DNA of 42,291 bases from Nitrospirota bacterium (GTDB lineage Bacteria; Nitrospirota; Nitrospiria; SBBL01; JAADHI01). Within the stretch, counting starts at the first letter, position 1. Each line of letters starts with the position of its first letter. The stretch lies in the NCBI GenBank assembly GCA_029261215.1, contig JAJDBT010000080.1, positions 1-42,291 of the forward strand. The letters run 5' to 3'. The notes beneath the pieces are model-generated. The model was not told the DNA's origin, searched no databases, and saw only the letters and a list, made by a program, of their open reading frames with translations. This document shows, piece by piece, positions 32,137-42,291 of this stretch. The translations under genes were made by a program, and so were the position numbers.

Positions 32137-33879
32137 TTATTTTTGATTTAAATAAGCAAGGATCCCTTCTTTAGGCAGGGTGTTAATGAGATCATCAGAA
32201 GAGAGCCATCCTTTTCGGGCAATCCCGATGCCTGCGGAAAGATCGGTCATGCTTGCAATCTGATGAGCATCCGGGTTTAAACTCATACGAACACCCGCCT
32301 CTTTGGCTAAGATGCAATACCGCCAGTCCAGGTCAAGCCGAAAAGGACTTGCATTCAGCTCGATGACCACTTCGTTTTTCCGTGCAGCTTCAATCACAGC
32401 GGGCATATTTAAAGGATACGCTTCACGGGACAACAAAAGTCGCCCCGTCGGATGCCCAAGCATGGTGACCGATGGATGCGAGACCGCCCGGATCACCCGC
32501 TCCGTCATCTCCGCTTCATTCATACTAAAATTGGAATGAACCGAGGCAATCACAAAATCAAATTCAGAAAGCGTTTCCTCATCATAATCCAGGCTACCGT
32601 CCGGCAGAATATCCGACTCAATCCCCTTTAAAATCTCAATCCCTTGAAACTTTTTTCGAAGTCCATCAATTTCTTTATGTTGCTTTCGAATACGATCGGC
32701 TTTCAGTCCATGGGCATAAACAGCAGATTGACTATGGTCTGATATTCCAATGTATTCATAACCCGCTTTTGCGGCAGCCGCCACCATTTCGGAAAGCGAG
32801 GCGGAACCATCACTATAGGTAGTATGCACATGAAAGATACCGCGGATATCGTTCTCCGTAACCAGCTTTGGAAGACGGTGATGAACAGCGGCATTCATTT
32901 CACCCCGTCCTTCACGTAGTTCCGGTGGGATGTAGTCAACATCCAGCGTCGAAAACAGATCATATTCATCCTTGCAAGGCAAAAGATGGTCTTCTAAAAA
33001 AAGACCATACTCACTCACTTTAATCCCAAACTGTTTCGCCCGCGCAGCAAATGACTGCTGATATGCGTCATTCCCTGTTAAATGGTGCAATAGAAAAGAA
33101 AAGCGGTCATCGGGAACAAGATATATCCGGAGGGCAATCCCATCATTCATTGTGCAATTTAAAATCTCAAATCCAGATTGGATTTGAGATTGGCATTGCG
33201 TTGCGACAATGCCATCAATGGCATACACTTCCGCTTTCAGATCTGGCGGTGATTCGCAGGAGACGATCAGATCAATCCCGCTCACGATTTCATTTCGACA
33301 CCTTAGTTCACCCACAGAACTTGCACGCATGACGCCCTTGATTTTTTGGAGTTCAGACAACAGGGACTCGCAGAGCCTTTGAGCCGTGTGTGCATGAAGA
33401 TATCCCTGGTGCTTTTTATGAAAGACGATGGCGTTCTGTATTTTTTCCTGTGTTTTTTTTCCAAACCCCGGTAAACTCACGAGCCGGTTTTCAACACAGG
33501 CATACTCCAAATCCACCAGGTTTGAGACCCCTAAGGACTCATGGATTTGACGTATTTTTTGGACACCCAAACCCCGCAGCGCCAACATTTCAAGAAGGCC
33601 GATCGGAACCGACGCTTTGGTCTCTTCATAATATTGCGACTGACCAGAACCTGCCCACTCAGCTATCGTTTCAAAAATCCCTGGCCCAATACCCTTCTCT
33701 TTTAAAAGAGAACGACTTGCGATGGCTTCTGAGAGATCGCCTTCCAAATCTTCCAAAACCCTGGCCGCATTCGCATAGGCTCTCGATTTAAAAGGGCTTT
33801 CCCCTTTAAGCGCCAGCAAAACAGACAATTCTTCCAAAAGCGGAATCAAGGCTTCTTTATCGAGTGGTCCTACAGACAA
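32137..33879 (-). CDS. polX: PolX-family protein with intact PHP nuclease and altered polymerase site
   Basis: A 580-aa PolX: helix-hairpin-helix motifs (GLGVQKI, GFGKKTQEKI), a Pol beta-type palm and a C-terminal PHP domain. Bacterial PolX fills short gaps and has 3'-5' exonuclease activity. In the palm the usual GDID is SGID (G201, D203), and the later vDLR is IALR (A249), so two of three metal-binding aspartates are gone. The PHP metal site is complete: H350-V-H352, D357, SDH, GIESD, SVHSN, GHPTGR and NPDAH. The protein is probably a nuclease only. The start is TTG 33879; an in-frame TGA just upstream leaves no earlier ATG. It follows the small membrane protein gene by 14 bases. Confidence 0.93.
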   Translation of the reverse strand: MSVGPLDKEALIPLLEELSVLLALKGESPFKSRAYANAARVLEDLEGDLSEAIASRSLLKEKGIGPGIFETIAEWAGSGQSQYYEETKASVPIGLLEMLALRGLGVQKIRQIHESLGVSNLVDLEYACVENRLVSLPGFGKKTQEKIQNAIVFHKKHQGYLHAHTAQRLCESLLSELQKIKGVMRASSVGELRCRNEIVSGIDLIVSCESPPDLKAEVYAIDGIVATQCQSQIQSGFEILNCTMNDGIALRIYLVPDDRFSFLLHHLTGNDAYQQSFAARAKQFGIKVSEYGLFLEDHLLPCKDEYDLFSTLDVDYIPPELREGRGEMNAAVHHRLPKLVTENDIRGIFHVHTTYSDGSASLSEMVAAAAKAGYEYIGISDHSQSAVYAHGLKADRIRKQHKEIDGLRKKFQGIEILKGIESDILPDGSLDYDEETLSEFDFVIASVHSNFSMNEAEMTERVIRAVSHPSVTMLGHPTGRLLLSREAYPLNMPAVIEAARKNEVVIELNASPFRLDLDWRYCILAKEAGVRMSLNPDAHQIASMTDLSAGIGIARKGWLSSDDLINTLPKEGILAYLNQK

Positions 33880-33892
33880 TTGAAACCCGCGT

Positions 33893-34096
33893 TCATTTTG
33901 GGTTCATCCCTTTTTTCTTGTTTTTGTGCGACATCCATTTCGAAAAAATCATGATGAGATAAACACCGAGAGCCGTTCCACTCATAAAATAGAAATTTCC
34001 GATGATGTGTGAGTAGTTCTCGGCAAGGAAAAAAAACCCGGACAAAATGACTGAGGTCGCCAAAACCATTAGCCATAAATTAATTAGTGGACGCAC
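33893..34096 (-). CDS. Small two-helix membrane protein
   Basis: A 67-aa protein with two hydrophobic helices (about 6-24 and 35-52), then a basic tail SKWMSHKNKKKG that should stay in the cytosol. I know of no family match. The ATG has AAAGGAG four bases upstream. It lies between radC and polX, 45 bp after the first and 14 bp before the second, so it is likely part of that operon. Confidence 0.65.
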   Translation of the reverse strand: MRPLINLWLMVLATSVILSGFFFLAENYSHIIGNFYFMSGTALGVYLIMIFSKWMSHKNKKKGMNPK

Positions 34097-34141
34097 ATAA
34101 AGCTCCTTTCGGTTCTATATTCAATAGTGAGGAGCATTGTA

Positions 34142-34882
34142 TTACAAATCCTCCCCATAGGCCACAGGGCCTTGACTTGCGACCGACAGGTTTTTCCTGT
34201 GATTATTCGTGTATCCAGCGTCGGCAAAACTAAAATAATCTTTACTCCCAATAATGACATGATCCAAAACAGGAATTCCCATGAGTTCCCCTGCGGAAAT
34301 GAGGCGCGTGGTAATCATTTTATCTTCCTCACTCGGGGTCGGATCACCACTCGGATGGTTATGCAAAAAGATCACTGCGGCGGCAGAATCCCGGACAGCG
34401 GGTTGAAAAACTTCCCTCGGGTGTACAATGGTCGCCGTTAAGCTCCCTTCAGAAATCATCACATCCCGAATAATTCTATTTTTCTGGTCGAGTAAGATGA
34501 TTTTAAAATACTCTTTCTTCGCACTTCTTAAAAGGTGCGCATAGTGCTGGAAGACATCCTGGCTTTTGGAAACAATCGCTCCTTCAAAAGTAGAAACAGC
34601 AAGAGAGCGTCGGCCCAGCTCAATCGCAGCTTTGATCTGAGCCGCCTTGGCCGGACCGACTCCTTTTATAGCACAAAGCTCTGTGACACTCGCATGAACC
34701 AATTGAGACAATGAAGAGAACTTCTTTAAGAGGTATATCGCTAACTGAAGCGCGTCTCCCTCATCAGAGCCCGTTCTTAATAAAATGGCCAGAAGCTGAG
34801 CGTCCGAAAGAGACGCAGAGCCATTTCTAAGCAGCCGCTCTCTCGGCCGCTCCTCTTTTGGCCAGTCTTTCAGTTTAATCAT
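34142..34882 (-). CDS. radC: RadC-family JAB/MPN-domain protein
   Basis: A 246-aa protein with an N-terminal helix-hairpin-helix (LCAIKGVGPAKAAQIKAAIE, about 69-88) and a C-terminal JAB1/MPN domain whose metal motif HNHPSGDPTPSEED is at 174-187. The name RadC implies DNA repair, but that role was not upheld in E. coli; the family is a putative metal-dependent isopeptidase or nuclease. The start MIKLKDWPKEERPRERL is typical. It opens the minus-strand run toward polX. The upstream 205-bp gap is shared with the plus-strand zinc-ribbon gene. Confidence 0.94.
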   Translation of the reverse strand: MIKLKDWPKEERPRERLLRNGSASLSDAQLLAILLRTGSDEGDALQLAIYLLKKFSSLSQLVHASVTELCAIKGVGPAKAAQIKAAIELGRRSLAVSTFEGAIVSKSQDVFQHYAHLLRSAKKEYFKIILLDQKNRIIRDVMISEGSLTATIVHPREVFQPAVRDSAAAVIFLHNHPSGDPTPSEEDKMITTRLISAGELMGIPVLDHVIIGSKDYFSFADAGYTNNHRKNLSVASQGPVAYGEDL

Positions 34883-34934
34883 TTTCTTAAATCCGGAATC
34901 ACTTTTTAAAAACCGGGATCTGTCTAGAACAAAA

Positions 34935-34975
34935 TTTTGTCACTTTCGTCAAAAAATTGTCGCCCATAGACGACA
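34935..34975. promoter_or_regulatory. Two tandem dyads upstream of the sigma-54-like promoter
   Basis: TTTTG-N10-CAAAA (34935-34954) and TGTCG-N8-CGACA (34958-34975) have centres 22 bp apart, about two helical turns. They lie roughly 60-90 bases before the candidate -24/-12 promoter, where enhancer-binding proteins normally sit. They are also 53-93 bases upstream of radC. Confidence 0.35.
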
Positions 34976-35023
34976 TATCCGTCTTAATTCCGTCGAAACC
35001 CCCGTTAATCCGCTATTAAAATC

Positions 35024-35039
35024 AGGCATACCATTTGCA
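35024..35039 (+). promoter_or_regulatory. Candidate sigma-54 (-24/-12) promoter
   Basis: AGGCATACCATTTGCA has the invariant GG (35025-35026) and GC (35037-35038) exactly ten bases apart, with TTTGCA matching the -12 box. The -24 box AGGCAT is weaker than TGGCAC. Transcription would start near 35050, giving a leader of about 38 bases before the zinc-ribbon ATG. Confidence 0.45.
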
Positions 35040-35087
35040 TCTAAAACTAAGCGTCTTGCTTTCACTCAATTTTTAAGGAGAAAAAAT

Positions 35088-35261
35088 ATGAAATGTCCTA
35101 AATGTAGCGGCCTAATGTACCTAGAGCGTCTTTCTGACTTTTTTGTGATCTTCAATGTCTGGAAATGCATCAACTGTGGGGCAGTCATGGATAAGACCAT
35201 TCTGGATAATCGAAGAAAAAGTCTCGCCGCCCTTGATGCAGTCGAGAGCATCTCTCAATAG
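35088..35261 (+). CDS. 57-aa zinc-ribbon protein
   Basis: A short but well-supported gene. AAGGAG at 35075-35080 lies seven bases before the ATG. The product starts MKCPKCSGLMYLERLSD, has a second pair CINCG 24 residues after the first, and ends in a helical basic-acidic tail. This is a compact zinc ribbon of the kind used as a small regulator or RNA/protein-binding adaptor; its target is unknown. A candidate sigma-54 promoter with tandem upstream dyads precedes it. It converges on the lipoprotein gene with a 17-bp gap. Confidence 0.75.
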   Translation: MKCPKCSGLMYLERLSDFFVIFNVWKCINCGAVMDKTILDNRRKSLAALDAVESISQ

Positions 35262-35278
35262 TTCCTTTATTCAAAAAC

Positions 35279-35875
35279 CTACTTCTTCTCGGCACATGAA
35301 AATGAGAAGGAGAAACGTTTTTCTTCGCCTGTTCGGATGACAGTAATCCGCTCAAAAGCGAGCGCGACATCCCGGCAATCTTTTTGGCGAACCTTTTTAA
35401 AAAGGATAAGTCCTTTCTTCTGGGCTCCAGAAGAAAGATCCCCATCTTTCAATCGGGAAGCCTTAATGAGCGCAATTTCTTCTTCAACGGTCTTTTTGGA
35501 TTTAGGAATCAAGACAAGCCGGGAAGGATCATCCCCTTTCTTGTAATATTGGATGCTTCGGTTCTCATCTAAAGGACGTTGCTCTGTTTCTGCATCAATC
35601 ATCAGCGAAATATCCGACAATGAAAACGTAATGGCTTCTTTGGTTCGATTGACAAGTGCAACATCAAAGGCCGTAAAATAATCGGAAAGATTAATTCCCA
35701 AACGTTTTTCATCCTCAGAGCCAATGCCTTGCGTGGTGATCGGCTTCACAATCACTTGAATTGCTTCATGATTCGGGGTATTTTTCCCTGCGGCAGTGGG
35801 TATTAAAAGAGGGGCCGTTGTCGTACAACCCGCGAGTACGACGTAAAACAAAGAAACGAATGTTAGTTTAGACAT
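35279..35875 (-). CDS. Hypothetical lipoprotein
   Basis: A 198-aa protein with a type II signal peptide: a hydrophobic stretch LTFVSLFYVVL followed by the lipobox AGC, lipidated at about C17. The mature part is mixed beta/alpha, with no family I recognise. It contains a paired-Lys/Asp segment (KKVRQKDCRDVALAFERITV) and ends in a basic tail. GGAGG is four bases before the ATG. It is monocistronic and divergent from rsmD. It should be anchored in the inner or outer membrane facing the periplasm. Confidence 0.8.
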   Translation of the reverse strand: MSKLTFVSLFYVVLAGCTTTAPLLIPTAAGKNTPNHEAIQVIVKPITTQGIGSEDEKRLGINLSDYFTAFDVALVNRTKEAITFSLSDISLMIDAETEQRPLDENRSIQYYKKGDDPSRLVLIPKSKKTVEEEIALIKASRLKDGDLSSGAQKKGLILFKKVRQKDCRDVALAFERITVIRTGEEKRFSFSFSCAEKK

Positions 35876-35992
35876 AATGCCTCCAAAGGAGAGTAATTAT
35901 ATTCACTCACCTCTTTAAAGTCAAAAATGGATCTGCCCTTGAAACCGCATTTTCAGGATGATTTCCCTGTTTAACTGAACTGGAATTAGAAC

Positions 35993-36535
35993 ATGAGAAT
36001 TATTTCGGGGTTTTTAAAAGGCCGCAGAATTTTCGCCCCCGCAGGCCTTGCCTTGCGCCCCACTCCCAGTAAAGTCAGAGGGGCCTTGTTTAATATTCTG
36101 GCAAACACAATTTCAAATACCTCTTTTCTGGATCTCTATGCCGGAACAGGAGCAATCGGCATAGAGGCTTTAAGCCGCGGCGCACAATCTACAACCTTTA
36201 TTGAGCATGATCATCGTCACTTACAATATCTCAGAAAAAACATTACGACAACCGCAATAAACGACAAGAGTACGGTTCTCGGCATTAGCGTAAACGACTA
36301 TCTAAAAGCGACAGACCAATCATTTGACATTGTATTTCTTGATCCGCCCTATGCAGGCGATGAGATTGAAAAGGTGTTGCCAAGGCTACAAGAGGGTGAT
36401 ATTATTGCGAAAAATGGCTTTTTGGTCATTGAGCACTTCCACAAACAGACACTCCCGGAGGTGGCTGGGGAGATCTGTTTTTTAAAAAAATATCGTTACG
36501 GAGAAACCATCCTCTCTTTTTATGGAAAATCATGA
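35993..36535 (+). CDS. rsmD: 16S rRNA (guanine966-N2)-methyltransferase RsmD
   Basis: A 180-aa SAM-dependent methyltransferase that modifies G966 in the 30S subunit head. The family start is MRIISGFLKGRRIFAP, the SAM motif LDLYAGTGAIGIEALSRGA (about 46-64) and the catalytic DPPY at 117-120. Length is normal. It overlaps coaD by 14 bases, an arrangement found in many bacteria. Confidence 0.96.
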   Translation: MRIISGFLKGRRIFAPAGLALRPTPSKVRGALFNILANTISNTSFLDLYAGTGAIGIEALSRGAQSTTFIEHDHRHLQYLRKNITTTAINDKSTVLGISVNDYLKATDQSFDIVFLDPPYAGDEIEKVLPRLQEGDIIAKNGFLVIEHFHKQTLPEVAGEICFLKKYRYGETILSFYGKS

Positions 36536-37049
36536 GCAAGCCCAAGTCGCGGTCTACCCAGGGACTTTTGATCCCATTACCAAGGGCCATATCGATATAA
36601 TTGGCCGCGCCCTTCGTCTCTTCCAAAACGTCGTTGTTGCTGTAGCTCCCAACCCAAGTAAAGTACCTCTTTTTGATATTGATGAGCGTATCGACATGAT
36701 TCGCCAAGCCACTCAAGAATTTTCAAATGTCAGCGTAGAAACGTTCCCAGGGCTTTTAATTCACTATATGCGGAAAAGAAAAGCCGTGGCCATTATTCGC
36801 GGCATCCGAGCTATTTCTGACTTTGAATACGAGTTTCAGATGGCCCTTATGAACCGAAAACTAGACCGGCATGTAGAAACCGTATTCCTCATGCCCAGCG
36901 AAAAATATACCTACTTGTCTTCCAGCCTGATTAAGGAAGTCGCCAGTTACGGTGGAGAAATCTCCGACTTGGTTCCTGAGATTGTTTCTGCCAAAATGGC
37001 TGAAAAGGCTGCGTTGAAAAAATCTCAATCTACGACGAGGAAACCATGA
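36522..37049 (+). CDS. coaD: Phosphopantetheine adenylyltransferase
   Basis: A 175-aa nucleotidyltransferase catalysing the fourth step of coenzyme A synthesis, joining phosphopantetheine and ATP. The HxGH-type motif is TKGH at 20-23, within AVYPGTFDPITKGHIDIIGR. The later motifs are IIRGIRAISDFEYEFQMALM and SSSLIKEVASYGG. The ATG lies inside the rsmD end, and its TGA overlaps the aspC start by four bases. Confidence 0.96.
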   Translation: MENHEQAQVAVYPGTFDPITKGHIDIIGRALRLFQNVVVAVAPNPSKVPLFDIDERIDMIRQATQEFSNVSVETFPGLLIHYMRKRKAVAIIRGIRAISDFEYEFQMALMNRKLDRHVETVFLMPSEKYTYLSSSLIKEVASYGGEISDLVPEIVSAKMAEKAALKKSQSTTRKP

Positions 37050-41688: not shown

Positions 41689-42291
41689 TCACGCTCTTAA
41701 ACCAGGATTCCCCAAACCGTGTTTTTTCATCAAACGAATGAGATGTTGCCGACTTATCTCCAGTTTTTGAGCCGTTGCCGTCTGGTTCCCTTTCATCTCT
41801 CTAAGCGCCGCTGTAATGAGGCCTTTCTCAAACCAGCACATCTCCTGTTTGTAAGTTCCCACCCCTTCTGAGCACGTGTCTTTTTGCGGACTCCCTTTTT
41901 TTGAGTACGGCTCAGGTAGGTCGATGTGTTCGGGGGTCAGATATTGCGCTTCAGAACACAGCAAGGCCCTTTGCAGCACTTTTCCGAGTTCACGGATATT
42001 TCCCGGCCAATGGTATTCTGCTAATTTTTCGAATGTTTCTGGAAGCACCTTCGGTGTGGACCTTGAGCCAGAGTGATATCGATCGATAAAATAGCGGACG
42101 AGCAAAGGAATATCTTCTTTTCTGTCCCTCAAGGGAGGCAGCACAATGGACACTTCGTTTAGGCGATAGAATAAATCTGCCCTGAATCGTCCTTGTTCAA
42201 CTGCTTTGAATAGATCGGCATTTGTTGAGGCGAGTACCTGTGATTTTAACGGCAATGTTTTGTTTGCACCCAAGGGTGAAAAGGTCTTTTC
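41689..42291 (-). CDS. Sigma-54 enhancer-binding protein, C-terminal part
   Basis: The frame is open to the window edge, so the N-terminus is missing. The visible part holds the end of the AAA+ domain: QVLASTNADL, the arginine-finger segment RFRADLFYRLNEVSI and sensor II WPGNIRELGKVLQRAL. A linker and a Fis-type helix-turn-helix (NQTATAQKLEISRQHLIRLM) follow. Such proteins drive open-complex formation at sigma-54 promoters, the class seen as a candidate at 35024. No direct link between the two is shown. It converges on tRNA-Arg. Confidence 0.93.
   Translation of the reverse strand, partial: EKTFSPLGANKTLPLKSQVLASTNADLFKAVEQGRFRADLFYRLNEVSIVLPPLRDRKEDIPLLVRYFIDRYHSGSRSTPKVLPETFEKLAEYHWPGNIRELGKVLQRALLCSEAQYLTPEHIDLPEPYSKKGSPQKDTCSEGVGTYKQEMCWFEKGLITAALREMKGNQTATAQKLEISRQHLIRLMKKHGLGNPGLRA

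Follow-up and report, generated by a model that had tools for sequence, protein, structure and literature searches.

The closest described counterparts of the locus are the RpoN/PilSR (Npa/Nps) circuits that control type IV pilin genes such as Pseudomonas pilA and pilE of commensal Neisseria, where, in the available parts of the reports, a GG-N10-GC promoter is combined with an upstream NtrC-type site. RpoN, IHF and a UAS act at pilE (PMC6528607, available in part), and PilR acts with sigma-54 at pilA, GTCT elements being among the hallmarks of PilR sites (PMC6058289, available in part). A similar combination could be seen ahead of a small gene in the window, that is, the whole stretch of 42,291 nucleotides of a Nitrospirota bacterium analysed here, whose genome encodes a PilS-like sensor and a PilR-like enhancer-binding protein (EBP); an IHF-like site is found at some pilA genes and at promoters of clade f6. 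The target is different, being a putative zinc-ribbon microprotein and not a pilin, and no such target appeared among the literature matches listed, as far as their available text extends.

The PrsK/PrsR-sigma-54 regulon of PEP-CTERM genes is made of single-gene units with an upstream motif and a sigma-54 box (Haft 2006; PMC1569441, available in part), and resembles the present case in that a conserved motif and a sigma-54 box at single-gene units were found by genome comparison. However, the 17-nt motif 1 of that regulon ends in TTTACA in the available text (PMC1569441), whereas the motif found here is TGACA-N5/6-TGTCA and TTTACA is absent from both strands of 34880-35024; the PEP-CTERM/PrsR regulon was rejected on these grounds. 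The zinc-ribbon protein FlgZ/HP0958, which prevents RpoN turnover (PMC3372290, available in part), is like the microprotein a two-CxxC ribbon tied to sigma-54 and a surface appendage, a similarity of idea only. FlgZ carries a DUF164 domain, whereas none was present among the 15 Pfam matches of the 57-aa protein up to E 10, a list from which weak matches may have been filtered. Neither the microprotein nor a pilus-type sigma-54 regulon in Nitrospiria was found among the literature matches listed.

The microprotein gene, its orthologues and the predicted sigma-54 promoter

The gene (35088-35261, plus strand) encodes 57 residues (MKCPKCSGLMYLERLSDFFVIFNVWKCINCGAVMDKTILDNRRKSLAALDAVESISQ) and is preceded, as the preliminary description had it, by a good Shine-Dalgarno sequence; this is AAGGAG (35075-35080, plus strand), placed 7 nt 5' of the ATG. 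The exact GG-N10-GC promoter claimed there is also borne out: the predicted -24/-12 element AGGCATACCATTTGCA (35024-35039, plus strand; GG at 35025-35026 and GC at 35037-35038) matches TGGCACG-N4-TTGCW at 9 of 12 positions, and from its position transcription is predicted to start at about 35050. The genome carries rpoN (Sigma54_DBD at G000:C50, E 4e-58), so that the refuting condition set out in the preliminary description, a genome lacking rpoN, does not apply.

Of the 58 genomes of the class that were examined, 53 have orthologues of the microprotein (E <= 1e-13), among them one broken by stops (G052, clade f6); G001, G015, G016, G042 and G045 gave weaker matches and none at this threshold, and the two f13 genomes, although they hold pilA-like and PilR-like genes, have no orthologue. 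Clades f1 to f13 are labels of the genome set used, among which f1 and f5 alone could be linked to named records. Named relatives in the class are 'Nitrospiria bacterium', 'Candidatus Manganitrophaceae bacterium', 'Candidatus Manganitrophus' and a record labelled 'Nitrospira sp.'; an f5 contig matches 'Candidatus Manganitrophus', and f1 contigs match the 'Nitrospiria bacterium', 'Candidatus Manganitrophaceae bacterium', 'Nitrospirota bacterium' and 'Nitrospira sp.' records. We take f6 to be the Nitrospira family proper, and f13 is presumably Leptospirillum-like. The counts below refer to the 75 copies, from 48 genomes, that a fixed pattern parsed out of 84 orthologue places fetched at the same threshold; the other nine, eight clear orthologues read by eye and the degenerate L092 with two stops, stand outside all counts.

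An equivalent box (at least 9/12, with exact GG-N10-GC) lies between -105 and -15 in 69 of the 75 copies, frequently some 60 bases 5' of the ATG and at a nearly fixed distance. Dinucleotide shuffles of the same interval (200 rounds) gave a mean of 1.0 and a maximum of 6 copies with such a box, and it occurs in 2.4% of 4500 random 90-nt windows from the same loci. The six copies below 9/12 are L019, L021, L024 (all f9), L039, L082 and L086. One or more boxed copies are present in 45 of 48 genomes, and the three without are those of clade f9. The shuffle and random-window controls led us to reject a chance sigma-54 promoter. A sigma-70-like match (9/12) does lie at 34993-35022, from which the gene might be read if box and dyads had arisen by chance; this match is near shuffle level (three such matches in 34800-36000 against 1.6 +/- 1.5 expected) and was rejected for that reason, and set against the retention of the sigma-54 box it leaves an ordinary sigma-70 promoter barely credible. 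Rfam returned no structured RNA at gathering score over 33800-36600, and a known structured RNA was rejected there.

The divergent radC gene (34142-34882, minus strand; NCBIfam NF000642, 260.7 bits against a cut-off of 180) is a conserved neighbour outside the transcription unit. A RadC-start signature is divergent upstream in 42 of the 75 copies, one per genome in 42 of 48 genomes, and a RadC-like ORF was recognised by eye in the f9 genomes G026 and G030, which the pattern missed. Downstream, rsmD-like and coaD-like genes follow in all three f6 loci read, as in the window. With these neighbours conserved, the locus looks vertically inherited. The f6 genomes carry extra scattered copies (six parsed in G048). 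To judge from the translations, L057, L060, L064, L076 and L082 follow HD-GYP-like genes, and L051, L058, L068 and L086 precede a RAYT-like transposase gene.

The upstream palindrome

Two helically phased dyads had been described ahead of the promoter. Both are present, the first, TTTTGTC-ACTTTC-GTCAAAA, at 34935-34954 and the second, TGTCG-N8-CGACA, at 34958-34975, their centres separated by 22 bp or roughly two turns of the helix, and five GTC elements on the plus strand (34939-34994; at 34939, 34948, 34959, 34981 and 34992) are spaced by 9, 11, 22 and 11 bp. In the comparison of the orthologues, what is conserved is the palindrome GAACAAAATTTTGTCA (34927-34942; TGACA-N6-TGTCA type, 8/10), a candidate activator site placed 97 bp upstream of the box; a perfect palindrome, ACAAAATTTTGT, spans 34929-34940. 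Only the window and L010, two of the 75 copies parsed, have the second dyad in exact form; it is scored as a terminator-like hairpin on the minus strand, too, and may equally be a terminator there.

The palindrome was searched for 50 to 130 bases upstream of the box. TGACA-N5/6-TGTCA is matched at 8/10 or better in 53 of 75 copies and at 9/10 or better in 20, the remaining 22 copies falling below 8/10; among 4168 AT-matched windows, drawn from 71 of the 75 orthologue loci, the corresponding figures are 9.0% and 0.4%. At 8/10 or better it is found in 31 of 47 f6 copies (5.5 in shuffles) and in 22 of 28 copies outside f6 (2.1 in shuffles), figures that are not fully independent, as the consensus had been spotted in the microprotein and pilin sets before scoring. 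The distance to the box is nearly fixed: the best palindrome lies 97-98 bp before it in five of six f1 copies (123 in the sixth), 100-101 bp in all four f5 copies and 109-112 bp in 34 of 47 f6 copies. Because of this conservation of promoter and operator, control of the gene by sigma-54 and an EBP is strongly supported.

Operator and promoter at pilin and kinase genes

Of the twenty prepilin-type matches examined in the genome of the window, three come with a box scoring 9 or more. In two of the three, which are major-pilin-like, TGACAAAAAATGTCA or TGACAAAAAATGACA is present as well, in the same layout as in the window (TTGACAAAAAATGTCATT with TGGCATTTAATCTGCA at L286, TGACAAAAAATGACA with TGGCACGCTAAATGCT at L287); the third (L289) has no such palindrome. 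Compared with these pilA operators, GAACAAAATTTTGTCA has similar half-sites and a spacer one base longer. Among the pilin loci of relatives the palindrome reaches at least 9/10 in 15 of 24 and is perfect in 9 of 24 (shuffles 0.10 and 0.00, respectively, with the same reserve as to independence), and in all loci with at least 9/10 the site lies 111-133 bp before the box. Thirty pilin loci had been fetched: L323, L329, L331 and L333 were left out because the sequence fetched did not contain the pilin start pattern, and L310 and L330 because it contained no box of at least 8. On later reading, an operator-like site (GAACAAAAATTGTCA) was seen in L310 together with an imperfect box, operator and box are both present at a neighbouring pilin of L330, L329 and L333 (f13) have no pilA-type site, and no pilin start was seen in L323 and L331.

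A similar layout occurs at an orphan PAS histidine kinase gene, to which a scan of 19 genomes for ACAA-N2-4-TTTGTCRC led, the scan as a whole being at control level (55 matches against 56). Operator and box were seen at the kinase gene in G002; the orthologue in the genome of the window is L167 (G000:C53:19575-21233). Seven genomes of family f1, including this one, have the kinase (E < 1e-140); a box of 8 to 10 of 12 is retained in our genome and the six relatives, and most of the seven promoters have, by eye, a GACAATTTTTGTCA-like site. Neither box nor operator-like site is present at the three f11 loci with kinase homologues. There is no EBP among the ORFs around the kinase gene in G002 or in the genome of the window.

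These parallels bear on the proposal that sigma-54 control is dedicated to the microprotein. The gene has no partner on its strand and a conserved promoter of its own, and a scan of its genome for TTGTC-N60-90-GGC-N7-TTGCW gave six distinct places against seven control matches; among the six, just two, in the window and at a nirD-like gene, were judged promoter-region-like; since the matches are at control level, no regulon list can be drawn from them. A pattern one base off, GG-N11-GC, was used as a negative control only and gave eight matches. Against a switch for the microprotein alone stands the fact that operator and promoter are arranged in a similar way at pilA and at the orphan kinase gene, which makes membership in a pilus-type regulon more likely, and the neighbours radC, rsmD and coaD suggest no nutrient. 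The sigma-54 and EBP part of the earlier proposal is strongly supported by conservation, its exclusiveness and a stress or nutrient role are not supported; we consider a dedicated switch of that kind improbable.

Candidate activators

A pilB-pilT-pilC-pilS-pilR cluster could be placed on contig C106 of the same genome. The PilS domain (PF25323, 6TM_PilS) scores 52.4 bits against a cut-off of 27 and the adjoining PilB and PilT are over their cut-offs; for PilC the corresponding model is the best match, under its cut-off. The EBP at the pilR position (L110) combines a receiver domain with a sigma-54 AAA+ and a Fis HTH domain, and its name rests on gene order, no PilR model being present among the best 25 of its 41 NCBIfam matches. 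The genome has 21 EBP matches, 15 of them strong (E < 1e-60), and among the 14 compared L110 alone gave reciprocal best hits in every one of the nine profiled genomes, which include both f13 genomes and just one f6 genome (G052, where the microprotein is broken); L119 of this genome and L232 of G009 were not parsed in the comparison. At the end of the window itself, the C-terminal part of another EBP (41689-42291, minus strand) is cut by the contig end.

The microprotein gene is best explained as a whole as a member of a PilS/PilR-like sigma-54 regulon of type IV pili, a reading to which we give slightly better than even chances. Its candidate activator site resembles that of the type IV pilus genes, so production of the microprotein probably coincides with that of pili. 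According to this model the gene would form a single-gene sigma-54-dependent transcription unit, in which an NtrC-family EBP, bound to the TGACA-N5/6-TGTCA palindrome some 97 bp before the -24/-12 box, would contact sigma-54 RNA polymerase via DNA looping, with a start at about 35050. The type IV major-pilin genes of the lineage have enhancers of this kind, and for this reason the likeliest activator would be phosphorylated PilR (or a relative) with its partner PilS, both presumably those encoded on C106. The microprotein would then be produced together with pilin and, in f1, with the orphan PAS histidine kinase.

TGTC/GACA half-sites are common among EBPs, and another EBP may therefore bind the palindrome. 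The promoter would in that case be as described, with an activator of equal half-site preference, such as the pseudopilin-linked L115 or an EBP outside those profiled, and the microprotein and kinase genes would form a small regulon separate from pilA. By eye, the kinase operators (GAACAATTTTTGTCA, CGACAATTATTGTCA) look nearer to those of the microprotein than to those of pilA, and in f6 the microprotein operator (TGACAAAAAAATGACG type) is unlike the pilA operators (TGCCAATTCTTGGCG, TGCCAAAACTTGTCA); outside f6, on the other hand, the two share half-sites and layout. At E <= 1e-130, L115 with its own PAS kinase was found in 32 of the 56 genomes; a search of 20 f6 genomes did not find it at this threshold, and it was not found in G030 or G034 either, although f6 and G034 have boxed microprotein copies. 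L115 therefore does not explain the f6 copies, and it was rejected as the main reading and kept as a rival. The IHF-like site (YAA-N4-TTG-M-W) is also distributed unevenly, being present in 33 of 47 f6 copies (26 of these 30-32 bp before the box), at 8 of 24 pilA genes and, at chance level, at 3 of 28 microprotein promoters outside f6. The differing f6 operators, this inconsistent IHF-like site and the f13 genomes with pilA-like genes and without the microprotein make a separate EBP a real rival, possible although rather doubtful; it gains some weight from the fact that the L110 comparison covered a single f6 genome. In many f6 copies TACGTA was noted by eye farther upstream of the IHF-like site.

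Proximity of pilin and microprotein genes was also seen in places. In four f6 genomes (G033, G037 and G051 as read, G043 from coordinates) some 13 kb separate a pilin gene from the microprotein gene next to radC; this is not general, the distance being about 50 kb in G035 and G050 and the genes being far apart in the single-contig G039 and G054. G046 has a microprotein copy 20 kb from a pilin gene without radC linkage, and in G001 the orphan kinase and pilA are present and the microprotein orthologue was not found.

The predicted product

The four cysteines of the two CxxC pairs (CPKC...CINC) are invariant in all six microprotein sequences aligned. An AF2 model built from this shallow alignment of six sequences (mean pLDDT 72, moderate confidence; residues 46-57 below 50) places strands at residues 9-17, 20-27 and 33-35, followed by a C-terminal helix, with the two CxxC knuckles predicted on beta hairpins. 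The best Foldseek match of the model in the PDB is the MqsA/YgiT zinc domain (3gn5, E 0.047), followed by the small zinc-finger protein ZifS (8yoz, E 0.09) and then RNA polymerase II subunit I ribbons; HVO_0758 (8q5b), another such small protein, was matched at E 1.3, and nothing was found at E <= 0.001. The likeness to the MqsA/YgiT, ZifS and HVO_0758 zinc domains is one of fold class only and implies no membership. Neither Pfam (best Zn_ribbon_ACC, 20.5 under a cut-off of 24.5) nor NCBIfam (best rubredox_RCKP, 17.7 under 45) has a model at cut-off for the protein, the best match of a PDB sequence search has E 0.02, and the literature matches listed for ZifS were only zeolite papers. The zinc-ribbon label given earlier holds for the CxxC pairs and the fold class, and the protein is a putative zinc ribbon in that sense, which would presumably bind zinc. 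It is probably cytoplasmic. PADLOC gave no match for a defence gene at E 0.01, and that reading was rejected.

In the pilus-type regulon, this small ribbon with its C-terminal helix would most likely have an accessory or regulatory part in the expression or assembly of pili, and it may be either a pilus accessory or a feedback element of the circuit. That it acts as a feedback regulator, made under the control of the EBP itself and binding the EBP, sigma-54 or RNA polymerase to tune pilus expression, is a specific form of the latter that we consider unlikely. Usually encoded at one locus per genome, a tiny protein with a well-conserved sigma-54 promoter and a pilus-type enhancer is a new candidate for a role in the regulation of pili or the cell surface. 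It belongs to bacteria that are difficult to culture, from a class with nitrifiers and metal oxidisers among its members, the manganese oxidiser Manganitrophus being one; operator, promoter and candidate EBP offer concrete handles on the regulon.

Other sigma-54 sites and neighbouring ORFs

A second zinc-ribbon paralogue (L008; G000:C76:29442-30733, read as L111 and L008) has a sigma-54 box of its own (TGGCATAGACTTTGCT, 10/12 at -60) and lies directly 3' of an EBP with a dehydrogenase-like N-terminus, between mdh-like and nuoF-like genes. Similar ribbon-EBP pairs occur in G008, G009 and G031, with no box found in G031; overall, four of seven orthologous EBP loci of this type have the ribbon, three of these four with a box of 10/12. 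Since this second ribbon adjoins an EBP and has a sigma-54 box (C76; also G008 and G009), a general pairing of ribbons and EBPs in the class is hinted at.

Upstream of the nirD-like gene, which forms a pair with a FAD reductase-like gene, a sigma-54-like box ending in GGCATGATGATTGCT and a repeated TTTTCTAAGTGTTT were noted (G000:C51:11512-11591, L103). Two further ORFs on the minus strand of the window, both without a Pfam match, lie near the microprotein gene. A 67-aa membrane-protein-like ORF is found past radC (33893-34096), and ORFs resembling it by eye adjoin the microprotein gene in G010 and G012. A lipoprotein-like ORF (35279-35875) was also seen, by eye, beside the microprotein gene in f9 and f11 loci.
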